A stretch of 35,116 bases of DNA. It comes from Gemmatimonadales bacterium. Its GTDB lineage: Bacteria; Gemmatimonadota; Gemmatimonadetes; Palauibacterales; Palauibacteraceae. The stretch covers positions 1 through 35,116 of the forward strand of contig JAUVMT010000003.1 of the NCBI GenBank assembly GCA_030600085.1. Reading direction: 5' to 3'. Below, piece by piece: positions 790 through 32,993 of the stretch. The position numbers were made by a program, and so were the translations under genes. Within the stretch, counting starts at the first letter, position 1. Each line of letters starts with the position of its first letter. Under the pieces are notes generated by a model. It worked only from the letters and a program-made list of their open reading frames with translations, was not told the origin of the DNA and ran no database searches.

Positions 790-2419
790 CGAGACGCACT
801 CCACCCATCCGCCTCACGTTGCGCGGCGCGCGGAGGATTCGAAAGTGACCCGGATCCACACGGATGTGCTCGTCGCCGGCAGCGGAATCGCCGGTCTCAC
901 CTTTGCGCTCAAGGCCGCCGAGTTCGCCCGCGTGGTTCTCGTGACGAAGAAGAACCGGGTGGAATCCGCGACCAACTATGCCCAGGGTGGCGTGGCGGCG
1001 GTGTTCGCGAAGGAGGATGCGTTCGCGCTTCACGCCGGGGATACCCTTCTCTCCGGTGCCGGCCTCTGCCACCGTCGCGCGGTCGAGGAGCTCGTGCGCG
1101 AGGGCCCCGAACGAGTCCGGGAGCTGATCGAGTGGGGCGTCAGGTTCAGCCGGGACGGGGTGTCTTTCTCGTTGGGACGAGAGGCGGGACACAGCGCACG
1201 CCGCATCGTTCACGCGGAGGACCTGACGGGAAGCGAGATCGAGCGCGCCCTTCTGGCGGCCGTGTCGGCGAAGCCTCAGATCCAGATGTTGCAGGACCAC
1301 TTCCTCTGGAAGCTCGCGGCGGTCACGGAGCCCAGTACCTTGAGACCTCGTTGCGGAGGGGCGCTCGTCCTCGATGTGTCGAACCAGCAGTGGATAGAGG
1401 TGGAGTGCCGGGCCGTCCTGCTGGCGACGGGCGGGTGTGGCAGACTCTACCGGCACACGACCAACCCCGAGATAGCGATGGGCGACGGAGTGGCCATCGG
1501 TTGGGAGGCCGGGGCTGCCGTGGCGAACCTCGAGTTCGTGCAGTTTCACCCGACCGCCCTCTATCCGACGGGCGATCAGGCCTTCCTGATCTCGGAAGCC
1601 GTGCGCGGAGAGGGAGCGGTGATCCGGAACCGCGGCGGCGACCCGTTCATGGATCGCTACCATCCGGCGGGGTCGCTGGCCCCCCGGGACATCGTGGCGC
1701 GTGCCATCGACGCCGAGATGAAACGCAGCGGGGAGCCCTACGTCCACCTGGATCTGAGTGATCTGGATGCCGAGCGTGTGCGCGCTCGCTTTCCGAACAT
1801 ACTGCGCGGATGCGCGGAGCGAGGAATTCGAATTCCCGAAGAGCCAATTCCGGTCGTGCCTGCGGCGCACTACCAGTGCGGCGGCCTCTTGGCGGACTGG
1901 GACGGCCGTACCTCGCTCGCCGGACTGTATGCAGCGGGCGAGGTGGCCTGCACCGGAGTACATGGCGCCAACCGTCTCGCGTCGAACTCGCTGCTGGAGG
2001 CCGTCGTCTACGCGGAGCGGGCGGCCCGGCGGGTGGAAGCCGATCTGCACGCAGTATCAGGCGTACCCCTTCCTTCGGCGACGAGTCTACCCGGGCTCCG
2101 TGCGGAGGGCGAGGATCCGGCCTCGATCGAGGAGCGGGTACGGGATGTCATGTGGGCGAACGTGTCGATCGTCCGATCAGATGAGAGGTTGAGCGTCGCT
2201 CGCAGGGAGTTGGATGGGCTCGTGAAACTCCCGCTCGCGCGCGACGGAACAGCTTCCGGGGCGATGTACTCCCGCCAGGTCGAGTTCGCCCGCGAGGTCG
2301 CCCGCCTCATCGTGCGCTGCGCGCAGCGGCGTCGGGAGAGCAGAGGTCTCCACTTCACGGAGAGCTATCCGCACCGGGACAGCGAGCGATACTTGCGAGA
2401 TACCGTCCTGGCGCGGTGA
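782..2419 (+). CDS. nadB: L-aspartate oxidase NadB
   Basis: FAD-binding GSGIAGLTFAL, TNYAQGGVAAV, HPTALYP, GLYAAGEVACTGVHGANRLASNSLLE; start GTG 782 (alternative GTG 845). Confidence 0.95.
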   Translation: MSSETHSTHPPHVARRAEDSKVTRIHTDVLVAGSGIAGLTFALKAAEFARVVLVTKKNRVESATNYAQGGVAAVFAKEDAFALHAGDTLLSGAGLCHRRAVEELVREGPERVRELIEWGVRFSRDGVSFSLGREAGHSARRIVHAEDLTGSEIERALLAAVSAKPQIQMLQDHFLWKLAAVTEPSTLRPRCGGALVLDVSNQQWIEVECRAVLLATGGCGRLYRHTTNPEIAMGDGVAIGWEAGAAVANLEFVQFHPTALYPTGDQAFLISEAVRGEGAVIRNRGGDPFMDRYHPAGSLAPRDIVARAIDAEMKRSGEPYVHLDLSDLDAERVRARFPNILRGCAERGIRIPEEPIPVVPAAHYQCGGLLADWDGRTSLAGLYAAGEVACTGVHGANRLASNSLLEAVVYAERAARRVEADLHAVSGVPLPSATSLPGLRAEGEDPASIEERVRDVMWANVSIVRSDERLSVARRELDGLVKLPLARDGTASGAMYSRQVEFAREVARLIVRCAQRRRESRGLHFTESYPHRDSERYLRDTVLAR

Positions 2420-2871
2420 AGGTGCTCATCCTGGCGGTAGGAAAACCGGGAGCGCTCCTCGTGTCCGCGATCAGGGAGTACGAGACTCGGGCAGGTCGTT
2501 ATTTCTCCTTGGACGTGATCGAGGTGCCGGCCGGCAAGGGGGAGCATGGCCCGGAAGCGGAAGCCCAGAGGCTTCTCGACCGAGTACCGGAGGGCTTCGA
2601 CGTCGTGGCGCTCACGCGAGAGGGGAAGAGGATGAGCTCGAAGGGCTTGGCGCGATATCTCTCGGCTCTCGGTCTGCATCGGCGGCCGGGCGTGGCCTTT
2701 CTCGTTGGCGGCCCGTTCGGGCTCGCGGAGTCGGCTCTCTCCAGCGCGGAGCACAAACTCTCGCTTTCCGCCATGAGCTTGCCACGCGATCTCGCCCGTC
2801 TGCTTCTGGCCGAACAGGTCTATCGCGCCGGGACGATTAGTCGCGGACAGCCCTACCACAAGGGGAGCTAG
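2416..2871 (+). CDS. rlmH: 23S rRNA (pseudouridine1915-N3)-methyltransferase RlmH
   Basis: 151 aa SPOUT family; ALTREGKRMSSKGLA, FLVGGPFGL, LLLAEQVYRAGTISRGQPYHKG; GTGA overlap with nadB. Confidence 0.95.
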   Translation: MKVLILAVGKPGALLVSAIREYETRAGRYFSLDVIEVPAGKGEHGPEAEAQRLLDRVPEGFDVVALTREGKRMSSKGLARYLSALGLHRRPGVAFLVGGPFGLAESALSSAEHKLSLSAMSLPRDLARLLLAEQVYRAGTISRGQPYHKGS

Positions 2872-2905: not shown

Positions 2906-3649
2906 ATGGGGGATCCTGGGAGGGCGGAGTGGTTCCGCCATTGGTTCGGCGAGGAGTATCTGCGACTGTACCCTCACCGCGACCAGGCCGAGGCGGCGGC
3001 GGCCGTGCGGCTGTATCTCGAGGTCTCCGGTCCGCCCCGGGGGCGGTCGCTCGACCTGGCCTGCGGCGAGGGAAGGCATCTGCGGGAGCTCAGGCGGGCG
3101 GGGGTCGATGCCGTGGGCCTCGATCTGTCGCTGCCGCTCCTTCGCCTTGCCCGCCGCTCCGAGACGCCGCCCTTCCTCCTCGTTCGGGCGGACATGCGGA
3201 GACTGCCCTTTCGGGATGCGTCGTTCAGCGCCGTGACCAGCTTCTTCACATCCTTCGGCTACTTCGCCGCCGCGGAGGAGGACGTGGAGGCGGCGCGTGA
3301 GATTCGGCGAGTGCTGGCGCCTGGGGGCCGGTTTCTTCTCGACTACTTGAACGCGGCGCACGTGAGGGCGGCTCTGGTGCCGGAGGAGATGTTGGACTTG
3401 GATGGAGGCTCGGTGCACGTGACTCGGAGCATCGAGGGCGACGTGGTGGTGAAGCGGATGCGGATCTCGAGCGGGGAGGGCGGTCGGCCCAGCGAGCACG
3501 TGGAGCGTGTTCGGCTGTACGCGCCGGAAGAGCTCGAGACGCTCCTGGCCTCCGCAGGGCTCGTCCCCACGGATCGTTTCGGCGATTACGAGGGCGCTCC
3601 CTTCGCGCCGTCATCGACTCGCCTGGTACTGGCGGGACACGCCGAATGA
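2906..3649 (+). CDS. Class I SAM-dependent methyltransferase, coupled to bshC
   Basis: SLDLACGEGRHLRELRRAGVDAVGLDLS motif I; RVLAPGGRFLLDYLN; 4 bp ATGA overlap with bshC. Confidence 0.88.
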   Translation: MGDPGRAEWFRHWFGEEYLRLYPHRDQAEAAAAVRLYLEVSGPPRGRSLDLACGEGRHLRELRRAGVDAVGLDLSLPLLRLARRSETPPFLLVRADMRRLPFRDASFSAVTSFFTSFGYFAAAEEDVEAAREIRRVLAPGGRFLLDYLNAAHVRAALVPEEMLDLDGGSVHVTRSIEGDVVVKRMRISSGEGGRPSEHVERVRLYAPEELETLLASAGLVPTDRFGDYEGAPFAPSSTRLVLAGHAE

Positions 3650-5277
3650 GCGGGCAGCCGCGGCTCGAGCACGCAGCCTTCGGGGCTACGGGCTCTCTGG
3701 GGTCGCGCTTTGCGGCCGGCGACGCGGCGGCCGTGGACCTCTTCCCGCCGTCGCTGCGCGGACGGAGTGAGTCCGGGGACGGTGCGGGGTCGCCCGCCCT
3801 TCCGCCCTCCTGCGAAAGCCCGGCGCTGACGGCCGACGTCTTCAACGCCTCCTCGCCCGCCGCCGCCGCCAAGCTGCGCTCCATCCTCGCCGGAGAAGGG
3901 GCGCTCGTCACGACCGGACAGCAGCCGTGCCTCCTCCTCGGCCCGCTGTTCGTCCTGTACAAGGCGATAACGGCGATCCGGCTGGCTGCGGTGCTCGAGC
4001 GGGAACTCAGGTGCCCGGTGCTCGCGCTCTTTTGGGTGGCCTCGGACGATCACGATTGGAAAGAGTTGGGCACCACACACCTGATCGACACATCCAACGC
4101 GCTTCGGAGTTTCCGGCTGAGCCCGCCCGAGGGGCGAGAGCAGCTGTCGGTCGGCCAGACAACGCTGGATGGCTCGATCCATGACTTGCTGGCAGAAGTT
4201 CGTGAAGTGCTTCCGCGGTCTGAGTTTATCAATCAGTATCTGGAGTTGTTCGGAGATACATATCGACCGGGCCGAAGCGTCGGCCGCGCGTTCGGCGAAG
4301 CGCTGACGGGAGTGCTGGAGGGACGCGAGCTGGTCTGGCTGGACTCGGCGGCGCTCGAGGTCAAGCGCGCCTTGGCGCCCCTTCACACACGCGCGCTGCG
4401 GCACGCCGCCTCGGCGGCGGCGGCGGTGACGAGCTCCACCGAGCGGGTACGGGAGGCAGGCTTCGAGCCTCAACTGGCCCTCCCCGACGGCGCCAGCAAC
4501 GTGTTCTACGATGACGGCCGCGCGCGCCGGCGGATCTACGTGGCGGGCGATGTCGCGCGACCGGGGAAAGAGGGCGGCGAGCGCCAGCTGGCCGAGCTGC
4601 TCGCTGAGGTCGAGCGATCTCCGGAGTCATTCGGGCCGAGCGCCGCACTGCGCCCGGTTGCGGAGTCCTGTCTCCTGCCGGTCTCTGCCTCGGTGCTCGG
4701 ACCGGCCGAGGTCGCGTATTGGGCCCAGCTCCCGGGTCTGTTCGAGTGGGCGGGTATCGGCATGCCCCGAACCGTGCCTCGCACGGGCTGGACGGCGATC
4801 GAGGCCAAGGTGGCCAAGGTCCTGGATGCGCTCGAGCTGGACCCTGGTGAGCTGTCGGATGGTGGGGCGGAGGTCGTGGAGCGATCCGTGCGCGGGGGAA
4901 GGCCTGAAGCAGTGGCTCGAGCCTTGGAGGAGGCGGAAGCGGCCCGAGAAGGCGCATTCGACCGCATCCTCGAGGCCCTCTCGGCTGAGATTCCCGGGAT
5001 CCGCGCCACGGCGGAGAAGGCACGGGCAGGTGCGCGAAAAGCTGCCCGGCAGCTCGAGAAAGCGGTGGATGCGAGCGTGCTCGAGCGGCAATCCGTGTTG
5101 CGCCGCAAGATCGAGAAAACGGCCCTCCATCTCTATCCGGCTGGTGCTCCCCAGGAGCGGATCTTGAATCCGCTCTACTATCTCGCGCGCTACGGTCCGG
5201 CCTTCCTCGAGAGCCTGGACCGGGAGGTGGAGACCGCGGTAGAAGAGTACGTTGCCCAGCTCGACAGGGCGCTCTAG
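3646..5277 (+). CDS. bshC: Putative cysteine ligase BshC (bacillithiol biosynthesis)
   Basis: 543 aa; LVTTGQQPCLLLGPLFVLYKAITAIRLA, CPVLALFWVASDDHDWKE, C-terminal ILNPLYYLARYGPAFLESL. Confidence 0.92.
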   Translation: MSGQPRLEHAAFGATGSLGSRFAAGDAAAVDLFPPSLRGRSESGDGAGSPALPPSCESPALTADVFNASSPAAAAKLRSILAGEGALVTTGQQPCLLLGPLFVLYKAITAIRLAAVLERELRCPVLALFWVASDDHDWKELGTTHLIDTSNALRSFRLSPPEGREQLSVGQTTLDGSIHDLLAEVREVLPRSEFINQYLELFGDTYRPGRSVGRAFGEALTGVLEGRELVWLDSAALEVKRALAPLHTRALRHAASAAAAVTSSTERVREAGFEPQLALPDGASNVFYDDGRARRRIYVAGDVARPGKEGGERQLAELLAEVERSPESFGPSAALRPVAESCLLPVSASVLGPAEVAYWAQLPGLFEWAGIGMPRTVPRTGWTAIEAKVAKVLDALELDPGELSDGGAEVVERSVRGGRPEAVARALEEAEAAREGAFDRILEALSAEIPGIRATAEKARAGARKAARQLEKAVDASVLERQSVLRRKIEKTALHLYPAGAPQERILNPLYYLARYGPAFLESLDREVETAVEEYVAQLDRAL

Positions 5278-5320: not shown

Positions 5321-5620
5321 ATGACGCTCTTTTGGGCCCTCATGGTCGTCGTATTGATTCTGCTGATCCCGCTCCTGGCGATCGTGATCGACTCGCAGAT
5401 CGGTCAGGCGCTCGCCCGGCGCATCTCTCGCGAACCGCCGCCGGGTGAGCTCGAGGCTCGCGTGGATGCGCTGGAGGGCGAGCTCAGATACCTGACGGAG
5501 TCGGTCGAAGGCTTGCGTGATGAGTCGGTCTTCATCCGTGCTCTCGTGGAGGGCAGAGGCGAGCCGCGGGATGCGCTGCCGCCCGGGGGGCAAGGAGCGG
5601 CGCGCGAATCCGGTGACTGA
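5321..5620 (+). CDS. Small membrane-anchored protein with C-terminal coiled-coil-like segment
   Basis: From ATG 5321: MTLFWALMVVVLILLIPLLAIVIDSQIGQALARR TM helix, then GELEARVDALEGELRYLTESVEGLRDE heptad-like region. Confidence 0.65.
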   Translation: MTLFWALMVVVLILLIPLLAIVIDSQIGQALARRISREPPPGELEARVDALEGELRYLTESVEGLRDESVFIRALVEGRGEPRDALPPGGQGAARESGD

Positions 5621-7181
5621 GGGAGCCGGACGCTCCTCAAGCCGGGAAAGCCGGAGCGCCGCTTCAGTCGGCGCGGGAATACTCGTCAGCCGCCTGACCG
5701 GCTTCCTTCGCGATCTCGTCATTGCCCGCTTCTTCGGTACGATGGTGGCCGCTGACGCCTATGCGGCGGCAATCAAGATCCCCAACGTGCTCCGCAACCT
5801 CCTCGGCGAGGGCTCTCTCTCGGCCGCGTTCGTGCCGGTCTACAGCTCGCTCCTGGAAGGCGATCGGGCCGAGAGCGAAGCGCCCGCCCTTCTGGCGCGG
5901 CGAGTGCTCGGCCGGTTGGTGCTGCTGGCCGGCGTTCTCTCCGCGCTCGGCGTGGTGCTGGCGCCGTGGCTGACTCGTATCGTGGCACCCGGCTTCGACG
6001 CCGAGACGTCGGCCCTCACGACCCAGCTCGTGAGGATCCTGTTCCCGATGGCCGGGGTCATGATCCTCGCGGCCTGGTGTCTCGGTGTGCTGAACAGCCA
6101 TCGCCGGTTTTTCCTCCCGTTTGCGGCTCCGGTGCTGTGGAACCTCGCTCAGGTAGCGGGACTCCTCCTGGGTGCCCGTTTCGGCTGGAGCCCGCTGATT
6201 CAGGTCCTTGCCTGGTCGACGCTGGCCGGGAGCCTGCTCCAGCTGGGTGTGCAGGTGCCGACGGCGCGCAGACTGGCCCGGGGCGTTCGTCCGCTGCTGG
6301 ATCGCGGTTCGGAGCCCGTTCGGCGAGTCATGCGCAACATGGTACCGGTGGCCGCGAGCCAGGGGATCTTCCAGGTCGCCAGTTTTGCGGACGTGATCCT
6401 GGCGAGCTTCCTGCCCGCCGGGGCGGTTGTCGGCCTGTACTACGCCCAGCGCCTGGCGTATCTGCCGTTGAGCGTCTTCGGCGTCTCCGTCGCGGCAGCG
6501 GCGCTTCCGGAGATGTCCCGGCAGACGGGACCCGAAGCGCTGCGCCCCAGGCTCGTGAACGGGTTCTTCCAGATCCTCTACTTCGTGCTTCCCGCGGCGA
6601 TCGCCCTGATCCTGTTCGGTGATCTGGCGGTCCGTATCGTCTTCCAGCGCGGGGCGTTCGACGAATACAGCACGCAGCTCGTGAGCGGAATCCTAATCGC
6701 GTATTCGGTCGGACTCGTCGCCACGAGCTCGGTCAAGCTCTTCGCCGGGGGCTTTCACGCCATGCAGGACACCAGGACGCCGATGCGCTTTGCTGCGATC
6801 TCCGTCGCTTCAGGGATCGCCCTCGGGGCCTCGGCGATGCTGCTGATGCGCGGTGCCGGCTACGGGGCGCTGTCAGCGGCCGGGCTGGCGCTCGGAGGCT
6901 CGGCGGGCGCGTGGCTGAACCTGCTCCTGCTGTGGTCAGGTCTCCGCCGCCGCGTGGGCGTCCTGTTCGGAGCCGCAGCGCTCCGGCCGCTCGTACGCCT
7001 CTGCGTAGCGGCGCTGGCGGGCGCGGCCGCCGGATCCGTAGCCAGGCTCGCGCTGACCGCGAGGATCCACCCGGAGACCACGATCGGGGCGGCGGCCGTG
7101 CTGACCGGAACGCTACTCGCTGCCGGTGTAGTGTACCTGTCGATCGTCCGTAGGCCCCCCCGTCCGATCTCCGATGGCTGA
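5613..7181 (+). CDS. murJ: Lipid II flippase MurJ (MviN family)
   Basis: GILVSRLTGFLRDLVIARFFGT, ADAYAAAIKIPNVLRNLLGEGSLSAAFVPVYS; probable GTG start 5613 overlapping the upstream stop. Confidence 0.93.
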   Translation: MTEGAGRSSSRESRSAASVGAGILVSRLTGFLRDLVIARFFGTMVAADAYAAAIKIPNVLRNLLGEGSLSAAFVPVYSSLLEGDRAESEAPALLARRVLGRLVLLAGVLSALGVVLAPWLTRIVAPGFDAETSALTTQLVRILFPMAGVMILAAWCLGVLNSHRRFFLPFAAPVLWNLAQVAGLLLGARFGWSPLIQVLAWSTLAGSLLQLGVQVPTARRLARGVRPLLDRGSEPVRRVMRNMVPVAASQGIFQVASFADVILASFLPAGAVVGLYYAQRLAYLPLSVFGVSVAAAALPEMSRQTGPEALRPRLVNGFFQILYFVLPAAIALILFGDLAVRIVFQRGAFDEYSTQLVSGILIAYSVGLVATSSVKLFAGGFHAMQDTRTPMRFAAISVASGIALGASAMLLMRGAGYGALSAAGLALGGSAGAWLNLLLLWSGLRRRVGVLFGAAALRPLVRLCVAALAGAAAGSVARLALTARIHPETTIGAAAVLTGTLLAAGVVYLSIVRRPPRPISDG

Positions 7182-13931: not shown

Positions 13932-13994
13932 CCTCGCCATGCAAAGCCGGATCGGAAAGACGAGTTGCGGGCTCGCCGCCGCCGGCCCTCCGGA

Positions 13995-15275
13995 ATGATC
14001 CGGGTCGCACAGGTCCGAAAGGGCTCCATCGGAGCCAACCTCGACATCCAGGTCGGTTCGAGTCTTCTCCGCCTCAACGGAGAGAGACTGCGGGACGCCC
14101 TCGATCTCCAGTACCTGGAAGCCGCCGAGCTCGTGGAGCTGGAGGTGGAGTTGCCCGGCGGCCGGCGCATCACGTACGAGATCGAGAAGGACGACTCGGA
14201 GTCTCTCGGGTTGGTGCCGGAAGCCGATCCGATCCGGCGCTGCACGAACGCATGCCCTTTCTGCTTCGTCAAAGGGAATCCAAAGACAGAGAAGCTGCGG
14301 ACCACCCTCTACATCAAGGACGACGACTACCGGCTTTCCTTCATGTACGGGCATTACGTGACGCTGACGAACCTGAGGGAGGAAGACTGGGAGCGGATCG
14401 AGGAGCAGCGTCTGTCGCCCCTTTTCGTAAGCGTGCATGCGACGGATCCGGAAGCGCGAGCGAAGATGCTCGTGAACCCGAGGTCTCGGGAGATCAACGA
14501 ACAGCTGGATCGGCTCGAGGCCGCCGGGATCGCCATTCACGCCCAGGCGGTGCTCTGCCCCGGCGTCAACACCGGTCCGGTGTTGGACCGGACGATCCTC
14601 GAGTTGTACGAGCGCGGCGATTCGGTGCTCTCGCTCTCGGTCGTGCCGGTAGGCCTCACTCGGTTCAACCAGAATTCGGGCGTCCGGCCCATGGACCCGG
14701 AAGAGAGTGCGCGCGCGCTTCGCCAAACAGCCCCGATCCGTGGACGAGCGCTCGAGGAGCGTGGGTACGCCTGGTGTTACGCATCCGATGAGATGTTCCT
14801 CTCGGCCGGGCTGGATGTGCCCGGACGGGAGTACTTCGACAACGAGGAGCTGGTCGGCAACGGTGTCGGAGCGATCTCGGGGCTCCGCGAGGCCGTCCGT
14901 GCCGACCTGCCGCGCCTTCCCAACCTCACCGGGCGCACGATCCTCCTCGCCACCGGCACCGCGATGGAGCCGACCCTCGTGGAGCTCGGCCGTGAGCTGC
15001 AGGCTGCGTGCGGCGTGGAGGTCAGAACGGCCGCCGTCCCCAACTCGATGTACGGGCCACAGGTGACGAGCGCCGGCTTGATCTCTGGAACCGACTACCT
15101 GGACGCGCTGCGTGCCAGCGAACCGTACGATCTGGCGATTCTCTCCCAATCGGCGGTCAACGAGCGCGGCTTCTTTCTCGACGATGTCTCGCTGGACGAC
15201 GTTCGAGCCGGCGTCCCGGGCGCCGAGATTCGCGCGGGTGACCACGTGACGGACGTTCTGCTGAGATGGCACTGA
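13995..15275 (+). CDS. DUF512 family protein (PDZ-like N-terminus, radical-SAM-like CxxxCxxC)
   Basis: RRCTNACPFCFVKGNPKTEKLRTTLYIKDDDYRLSFMYGHYVTLTNL, LFVSVHATDPEARAKML, AVLCPGVNTG, LSVVPVGLTRF; ATG 13995 preferred over 13965. Confidence 0.9.
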   Translation: MIRVAQVRKGSIGANLDIQVGSSLLRLNGERLRDALDLQYLEAAELVELEVELPGGRRITYEIEKDDSESLGLVPEADPIRRCTNACPFCFVKGNPKTEKLRTTLYIKDDDYRLSFMYGHYVTLTNLREEDWERIEEQRLSPLFVSVHATDPEARAKMLVNPRSREINEQLDRLEAAGIAIHAQAVLCPGVNTGPVLDRTILELYERGDSVLSLSVVPVGLTRFNQNSGVRPMDPEESARALRQTAPIRGRALEERGYAWCYASDEMFLSAGLDVPGREYFDNEELVGNGVGAISGLREAVRADLPRLPNLTGRTILLATGTAMEPTLVELGRELQAACGVEVRTAAVPNSMYGPQVTSAGLISGTDYLDALRASEPYDLAILSQSAVNERGFFLDDVSLDDVRAGVPGAEIRAGDHVTDVLLRWH

Positions 15276-30404: not shown

Positions 30405-31336
30405 TTCCGCATGTCCCGTCTCAGCGCCTCCACCTCGGCCCTCAGCCCGGCGATCAGCTCGGCGAGGAAGCCGAGCACGAAGAGTCCGAGACCGACGAGC
30501 ACGAGAAGCAGCACGAGGGTGAGCAGCGGCCGGTAGCCCTGACCGAGCACGAATCGGAGGTAGATGGCGATGGCACCGGTGATCGCACCGAGCCCCAGGA
30601 GCGCGAGGCCGGTCATCCCGAAGAAGAGCAGCGGCTTGCGGCCGAAGACGAGCTGAAACCAGACTGCGACCAGGTCCAGTGTGCCGATCAGGATTCGCTG
30701 CCTGCCACCGTATTTCGAGACACCATGCCGTCGGGGATGAAGCTCGACGTCGATCTCCCGCAGGCGGAAGCCGCGATCGTGTGCGAGCACGACCATGTAT
30801 CGATGCCAATCATCCCGCAGCTCCATCTCGTCGATGACGCTTCTGCGAAATGCCTTCATGGAGTTCAGATCGTGCACGGGGACCTGGAAGATCAGACGTG
30901 AGAGCCAGTTGTACACGCCCGACACAAAGCGTTTTTCGTATCGGCCGACCTTGCGGCCGGTGACCAGGTCCGAGCCCTCGTCGAGGGCCCGGACGAAGCG
31001 CGCGATCTCCTCGGGTGAGTGCTGGAGGTCCGCGTCGAAGAGAACCAGGTACTCGCCGCTGGAGGCCTCCGCCCCGGTCAGCAGCGCGTCGGTCTTTCCG
31101 CGATTGGAGCGGTGCGACAGGAAGCGAGCATTGGTGAGGCCGGCCGCCGCGGCGGCTCGGCGTGCCGCCTCCAGCGTTCCATCGGTCGAGCCGTCGTCGA
31201 CGAGTACAACCTCTACGTCGAGGTCGGCGTCGCGCAAAGCGGAGGCGAGCTCGGAGAACAGATCGGGCATGTTGTCCGCCTCGTTGAAGGCGGGCACGAT
31301 CACCGAGGTCTTCGTTTCCGTCTGAGGCTGCGTCAC
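30401..31336 (-). CDS. GT2 polyprenyl-phosphate glycosyltransferase (GtrB/DPM-like) with C-terminal TM helices
   Basis: SVIVPAFNEADNMPDLFSEL, VVLVDDGSTDGT, LVLFDADLQHSPEEI, DLNSMKAFRR; two to three C-terminal TMs. Confidence 0.93.
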   Translation of the reverse strand: MTQPQTETKTSVIVPAFNEADNMPDLFSELASALRDADLDVEVVLVDDGSTDGTLEAARRAAAAAGLTNARFLSHRSNRGKTDALLTGAEASSGEYLVLFDADLQHSPEEIARFVRALDEGSDLVTGRKVGRYEKRFVSGVYNWLSRLIFQVPVHDLNSMKAFRRSVIDEMELRDDWHRYMVVLAHDRGFRLREIDVELHPRRHGVSKYGGRQRILIGTLDLVAVWFQLVFGRKPLLFFGMTGLALLGLGAITGAIAIYLRFVLGQGYRPLLTLVLLLVLVGLGLFVLGFLAELIAGLRAEVEALRRDMRK

Positions 31337-32769
31337 ACCCGCTTGCGCATGCGTGCGGAAAGGATACCCAGCTGATCTCGGTACTTGGCCACGGTCCGGC
31401 GGGCGATCCGCACACCCTCACTTTTGAGGATATCCACGATCGCCTGGTCCGTCAGCGGTCGCCTCGGGTCTTCGTCATCTACCAACTTCTTGATGCGGAC
31501 CCGGATGCCCCGGGCCGAGACATCCTCGCCATAGTCGGTCGAGAGGCCGCTCGAGAAGAAGAACTTGAGCGGATAGACGCCACGAGGCGTCTGCACGTAC
31601 TTCCCGTTCGTCACCCGCGAAACGGTGGACTCGTGCATGTCGATGTGCTCGGCCACCTCTCGCAGCGTCAGCGGCTTCAGGTGCTCGACCCCCTTCTCGA
31701 AGAACTCGCGCTGCCGGTCGACGATGAAGTTCATGACCTTGAGCATCGTCTGCCGGCGCTGCTCGATCGCCTGGATCATCCACTGGGCGCTGTTCAGCTT
31801 TTTCGCGATGAACGTCTTGTTGTCGCCCGTGAACTGGTTCTTGTCGCGTGCCACCTCGCGGTAGGACTGCGAGAGCTTCAAGCGAGGAAGGGACGTGTCG
31901 TTGTGGAAGACATAATACTGATCGTCGATCTTCTCGACGACCAGATCGGGGGTAACGTAATCATTTCCAGCTTCGGCGTGCTTGAGGCCCGGCTTGGGAT
32001 CCAGCTTCGCGATCTCGTCCGCGGCCGTCTGGACCGCCTTGGGAGAGATCCCGTGCTCCTTGGAAAGCTCGCTCCACCTGTGGTTCACGAGCTCCTCGAA
32101 ATGGTCGCAGACGAGGCGGAACGCGAGGCCGTCGATCTCCTCGCGGTCACGCAGCTGTAACAGCAGGCACTCGCGCAGGTTCCGCGCGCCTACCCCGCTG
32201 GGCTCGAACAGCTGAATCATCGCGAGTAGCCGCTCGACCTCCTCGATCGTGAACGGCTCGGTCCGTTCGTCCTCGCCCGCCTCGGACTCGGAGAGATAGC
32301 TGTTGAGTGACTCGACGACCTCTTCCAGAGAGCAGGAGAGGAAGCCTTCGCGGTCGATATTGCCGATGATCTCTTCGCCGAGGAGCAGATCCCGCGGATT
32401 CAGGGGGAGAAGCTGGACCTGGTCCCTCAGGAAGTCCCATAGGTCACGCGAGCTGGCAGGAGTCGGCCTGTAGTATTCGCGCTCCTCGTACTCGGCGCGG
32501 CGGCCGCCGACGTCGAAGCCGTTCAGGAGGATCTCTTCCCAGTCGATCTCGTCGTCTGGTTTTTCGGGGGTTTCCTCCTCCTCCAGCTCCTCTTCCTCCT
32601 CCTCGGTGAGATCGAGGAACGGGTTGTTCTCGAGCTCCTGCTTCAGGTGCTGTTGAAGGTCCAGGAGCGGCATGTACAGGAGATCCATCGCCTGGTAGAG
32701 GCGAGGGTTGACCCTCATCTCCTGTCGCAGGCGCGGTAGTTGGCTCAGACCTATTCGGGAATCGACCAT
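31333..32769 (-). CDS. rpoN: RNA polymerase sigma-54 factor RpoN
   Basis: N-term LSQLPRLRQEMRVNPRLYQAMDLLYMPLLDLQQHLKQELENNPFLDL; DNA-binding VSRVTNGKYVQTPRGVYPLKFFFSSG; RpoN box ARRTVAKYRDQLGI. Confidence 0.96.
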   Translation of the reverse strand: MVDSRIGLSQLPRLRQEMRVNPRLYQAMDLLYMPLLDLQQHLKQELENNPFLDLTEEEEEELEEEETPEKPDDEIDWEEILLNGFDVGGRRAEYEEREYYRPTPASSRDLWDFLRDQVQLLPLNPRDLLLGEEIIGNIDREGFLSCSLEEVVESLNSYLSESEAGEDERTEPFTIEEVERLLAMIQLFEPSGVGARNLRECLLLQLRDREEIDGLAFRLVCDHFEELVNHRWSELSKEHGISPKAVQTAADEIAKLDPKPGLKHAEAGNDYVTPDLVVEKIDDQYYVFHNDTSLPRLKLSQSYREVARDKNQFTGDNKTFIAKKLNSAQWMIQAIEQRRQTMLKVMNFIVDRQREFFEKGVEHLKPLTLREVAEHIDMHESTVSRVTNGKYVQTPRGVYPLKFFFSSGLSTDYGEDVSARGIRVRIKKLVDDEDPRRPLTDQAIVDILKSEGVRIARRTVAKYRDQLGILSARMRKRV

Positions 32770-32780
32770 GGTCTCCCGGT

Positions 32781-32795
32781 GGCGCTGAAAGCGCC
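32781..32795 (-). other. Hairpin GGCGCT-TTC-AGCGCC upstream of the rpoN ribosome-binding site
   Basis: Perfect 6-bp stem with 3-nt loop ending 11 nt upstream of the rpoN start codon. Confidence 0.5.
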
Positions 32796-32993
32796 CTCTT
32801 GGGTTGTTGTTTCCGGCCCGAAACGCCGGTCGGATCCGCTGCAACTGCCGCTCCGTGCAAGAAAATATGGCATTGCGCACGCCGCGGCACGTCCCTTGCT
32901 GCGCCGGGCGTAAACAAGCGCAAGTCGGGTGCCGGGCCGCGCGGGTTCGGAGGTTTCGGGCAGGTTCGGGGGGCTCGGGTCGTTACAAGGACG

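Follow-up and report, generated by a model that had tools for sequence, protein, structure and literature searches.

Does the methyltransferase gene that overlaps bshC in a Gemmatimonadales bacterium extend bacillithiol synthesis to N-methyl-bacillithiol? Bacillithiol, a protective thiol, arises in three steps, in which BshA joins GlcNAc to malate, BshB1 deacetylates and BshC adds cysteine. Measurements of N-methyl-bacillithiol exist, to our knowledge, for very few organisms. Published work has already described NmbA, what it does and that it is frequent in Gemmatimonadota (PMC6282198, PMC12719100). The locus was studied in a window, the whole stretch of DNA analysed, of 35,116 nucleotides, taken from a genome assembly of 2.25 Mb that is 89% complete and has Gemmatimonadota MAGs as its closest named relatives. 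The features concerned are as follows.

2416..2871, + strand: rlmH, upstream neighbour of the methyltransferase gene (PF02590, 128 bits)
2906..3649, + strand: nmbA-like class I SAM methyltransferase, predicted bacillithiol N-methyltransferase, 247 aa, ATG start; best solved relative 9RI2
3646..3649, + strand: ATGA, in which the stop of the methyltransferase gene overlaps the start of bshC, read directly from the sequence
3646..5277, + strand: bshC, bacillithiol biosynthesis cysteine-adding enzyme, 543 aa, ATG start (TIGR03998, PF10079, PF24850)
5517..7181, + strand: murJ, downstream neighbour of bshC, kept in Gemmatimonadota (PF03023, TIGR01695)

Every position originally predicted for the two open reading frames and their shared ATGA was confirmed. 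The first frame matches Pfam Methyltransf_11 with 67 bits, in agreement with its assignment as a class I SAM methyltransferase, and the second is BshC as proposed, scoring 329.6 bits against a TIGR03998 cut-off of 265.8 and carrying both BshC Pfam domains. The local order, all on the + strand, is fabZ, nadB, rlmH, the methyltransferase gene, bshC, murJ, uvrC, gltX and a threonine-synthase-like gene. Elsewhere in the window, a radical SAM-like/DUF512 protein is encoded at 13965-15275, followed directly on the same strand by an EngA-type (Der) GTPase and a glycerol-3-phosphate acyltransferase, and a sigma-54 factor (RpoN) gene lies at 31333-32880 (- strand).

Relation of the methyltransferase to NmbA

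Comparison of the 2906-3649 protein with all solved structures by phmmer placed 9RI2, the NmbA of Chlorobaculum tepidum (CT1040, here CtNmbA; PMC12719100), first with 127.8 bits (E 4.7e-36; residues 7-242 of 247 on 14-257 of 266), the next enzyme being TylM1 with 53.7. A profile built from 30 relatives with the window protein at the head gave 240.7 bits for 9RI2 and 98.1 for the next match, and both leads uphold the suggestion that the protein is a relative of NmbA. Its identity to CtNmbA in the alignment is 36%, similar to that of the Paenibacillus (35-36%) and Bacteroidota (31-37%) members, groups in which NmbA has been proven or chemically supported (PMC12719100, PMC6282198). By the published definition of an NmbA orthologue (E ≤1e-20, coverage above 80%, identity above 25% and a length similar to CtNmbA; PMC12719100), applied with HMMER in place of BLAST, the window protein classes as one.

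Conservation at the residue level was assessed over 124 NmbA-like rows, in which 39 columns are conserved in at least 88%; the window protein has the consensus at all 39 and CtNmbA at most of them. Near-invariant in these rows and common to both proteins are R25, Y119, F120, D146, K183, E200 and R239, with Y119/F120 matching the aromatic pair Y134/F135 of CtNmbA. SAM motif I reads SLDLACGEG (residues 48-56) in the window protein and VLDIAxGxG in CtNmbA, the first residue being S rather than V. A quick tree, in which the deep branches are weak, placed the protein in a Gemmatimonadota/Fibrobacterota clade within the group of CtNmbA and the Paenibacillus and Bacteroidota NmbA proteins.

An AlphaFold2 model of the window protein (pLDDT 90.7) also found 9RI2 first by E-value, with TM-scores of 0.70-0.76 that are no better than those for other small-molecule methyltransferases. 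Since the TM-score does not separate NmbA from such enzymes, structure comparison was set aside as proof of NmbA identity. The outcome is consistent with the report that AlphaFold models miss the unusual topology of the Cap domain in the 9RI2 crystal and misplace its strands (PMC12719100).

A predicted fold like that of many small-molecule methyltransferases is also what would be expected if the gene encoded a generic SAM methyltransferase with an unrelated function and stood in the same operon by chance. Generic methyltransferase Pfam models do match the protein, and in the NCBIfam search no equivalog model exceeded its cut-off and no NmbA model was among the matches. Against this reading, NmbA leads all other matches by more than 70 bits in the direct search and by 140 bits with the profile; its probability is taken up below with the gene order.

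Linkage of the methyltransferase gene to bshC

Methyltransferase matches in a survey of 198 genomes of the same class split into clade A, 43-100% identical to the window protein and present in 96 genomes, and clade B, 31-40% identical and present in 54, with both clades in 8. In 88 of the 89 genomes for which a bshC position was listed, the clade A gene immediately precedes bshC on the same strand. The sole exception (G168) is a contig break: the clade A gene ends 69 bases before the contig end, and bshC opens another contig. Every one of the 96 clade A genomes carries bshC, but because 190 of the 198 genomes in the class have it too, co-occurrence alone is weak evidence and the argument was built on adjacency. 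Similarly, since four-base overlaps are common in operons, only the recurrence of the overlap, and not the single instance, was counted; a 4-base NTGA overlap was present in 57 of 83 neighbouring methyltransferase-bshC pairs, a set that includes close relatives.

Neither clade is present in some 50 genomes of the class that do have bshC. No relative of the window methyltransferase was found beside bshC in 12 loci without a neighbouring clade A gene or in one further locus (L156), most of which have rlmH directly upstream of bshC and murJ downstream. Because the rlmH-bshC-murJ neighbourhood is otherwise intact where the gene is absent, the methyltransferase gene came or went alone in Gemmatimonadota, gain and loss being indistinguishable. 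Four genomes from genera g27 and g38 (G022, G050, G071 and G056; loci L167, L168, L171 and L172) have a strong bshC and no BshA-model match at E 1e-75.

For the comparison across phyla, the 80 loci used were picked by their similarity to the window protein and are not an unbiased sample. Among loci chosen in this way the pair was adjacent in 14/16 from Acidobacteriota, 4/4 from Fibrobacterota, 5/6 from Hydrogenedentota and 2/3 from Planctomycetota, and one Chloroflexota locus had it adjacent with a gap. It was not adjacent in the loci from Bacteroidota (0/23), Bacillota (0/3) and Ignavibacteriota (0/2); some negatives lie close to the end of a contig. Of the window's other neighbours, none was shared by loci outside Gemmatimonadota, except for one distant NadB match.

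Because the pair recurs in 88 of 89 class genomes and in several other phyla, the adjacency of methyltransferase and bshC is more than chance, and the pairing first noted at a single locus is kept well beyond this genome. Nor is the family abundant in genomes lacking bshC: none of the 96 clade A genomes is without it, and of 50 carriers of the gene in other phyla, 48 have it. Adjacency on this scale, kept across phyla without the other neighbours, argues together with the bit-score leads against a generic methyltransferase in a chance position, a reading that we consider very improbable.

Predicted pathway and the question of the substrate

The original prediction had correctly noted that the window contains no bshA or bshB. 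Both are encoded elsewhere in the same genome, bshA on contig C106 (539.7 bits) and bshB1 on contig C149 (221.3 bits), each over its curated cut-off. Together with the two genes in the window, they complete the predicted N-methyl-bacillithiol gene set: bshA, bshB1, bshC and the methyltransferase gene. The second-best match to the BshA model, at about 27.6-28.4 kb of the window, is far below the cut-off and is an ordinary glycosyltransferase. A PIG-L family protein on contig C26 (L160:2-1516) was rejected as a second BshB; its only score is on the model for the mycothiol amidase Mca, well under the cut-off, and it is possibly a bacillithiol-conjugate amidase.

Judging by family membership, BshA, BshB1 and BshC would act in turn to yield bacillithiol, and the 2906-3649 enzyme would then methylate the amino nitrogen of the cysteine part once, with SAM as donor. 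N-methyl-bacillithiol would be the main low-molecular-weight thiol of the organism, and through the 4-base overlap the last two enzymes would be translated together. What was computed directly is the homology, the gene order with its conservation and the completeness of the gene set; substrate, product and coupling we infer. Similarity to NmbA, the presence of bshA and bshB1, and conserved coupling to bshC favour the N-methyl-bacillithiol module originally suggested. We consider it very likely that the window carries an nmbA-bshC pair whose methyltransferase makes N-methyl-bacillithiol from bacillithiol in coupling with bshC, and this Gemmatimonadota bacterium probably makes that thiol. The points against are an identity of only about 36% to the proven enzymes, the readiness with which class I methyltransferases change substrate, the S for V in motif I, the weak deep branches of the tree and the undiscriminating TM-scores.

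The clade B proteins (L118-L137) bear on the choice of substrate. They are 23-34% identical to CtNmbA and still have 9RI2 as top match (92 and 75 bits), and the quick tree placed them, on a long branch and with modest deep supports, also inside the CtNmbA-containing group. Most lack R25, A30, D146, K183 and E200, and often Y119 and R239, residues near-invariant in NmbA. None of 23 scorable clade B genes is near bshC, and two clade B genomes (G007 and G019) have no bshC or bshA match.

The strong link to bshC says only that the substrate is pathway-related, and sequence alone reveals no substrate. At about 36% identity to CtNmbA the enzyme might serve the bacillithiol pathway at another step or on another acceptor, such as cysteine before ligation, another atom of bacillithiol, or bacillithiol conjugates. 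We hold this to be improbable, if somewhat less so than a chance neighbour. The residues that CtNmbA and the window enzyme share, and that clade B, unlinked to bshC, lacks, speak for a shared pocket. No N-Me-cysteine was ever observed in C. tepidum, where a strain deleted for nmbA contained unmethylated bacillithiol in the amount previously present as N-Me-BSH (PMC6282198). CtNmbA and P. polymyxa NmbA (PpNmbA) methylate bacillithiol in vitro, and not oxidised bacillithiol, glutathione or glycine (PMC12719100).

Significance and comparison with known systems

The gain lies in distribution and gene order rather than in chemistry, the step being one already demonstrated for C. tepidum and P. polymyxa. 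An nmbA-bshC operon was not found in the main texts of PMC6282198 and PMC12719100 or in a commentary; on the basis of this search of main texts, the gene order is provisionally regarded as the new element, and as a modest addition. The tight pair would be a much stricter marker of N-methyl-bacillithiol makers than homology alone, and cultured Gemmatimonadota with and without the gene offer a natural comparison for the role of the methyl group. For gene-based surveys, clade B is a caution. The thresholds of the published survey were as low as 25% identity and E 1e-20 (PMC12719100); many clade B proteins would pass them, and clade B alone may have put some Gemmatimonadota among the makers. A broader proposal, which we advance tentatively and at somewhat below even odds, is that nmbA-bshC is an old, portable two-gene operon of several phyla coupling the last two steps of N-methyl-bacillithiol synthesis and that clade B methylates a different substrate, in which case loose-threshold predictions would overcount makers in Gemmatimonadota.

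Among known systems, the downstream partner in the window is an orthologue of BshC, over the curated TIGR03998 cut-off and with nothing notable different. The sugar N,N-dimethyltransferases TylM1/DesVI and CypM share with the window protein the class I fold and small-molecule amine acceptors, but reach at most 54 bits to it, and many NmbA-invariant residues are missing (TylM1 row). Paenibacillus NmbA belongs to the same family, the homologues in the tree being 36-43% identical to the window protein; bshC is not beside the gene in 3 of 3 Paenibacillus loci, which do not include PpNmbA itself. CtNmbA shares with the window protein full-length homology, SAM-binding motifs, the near-invariant residues and a genome with bshA, bshB and bshC, and differs in its subclade and in sequence (about 36% identity). 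The two also differ in gene order: in C. tepidum, nmbA (CT1040) and bshC (CT1558) are far apart by locus tag (PMC12719100), whereas the window gene lies directly upstream of bshC and overlaps it by four bases.
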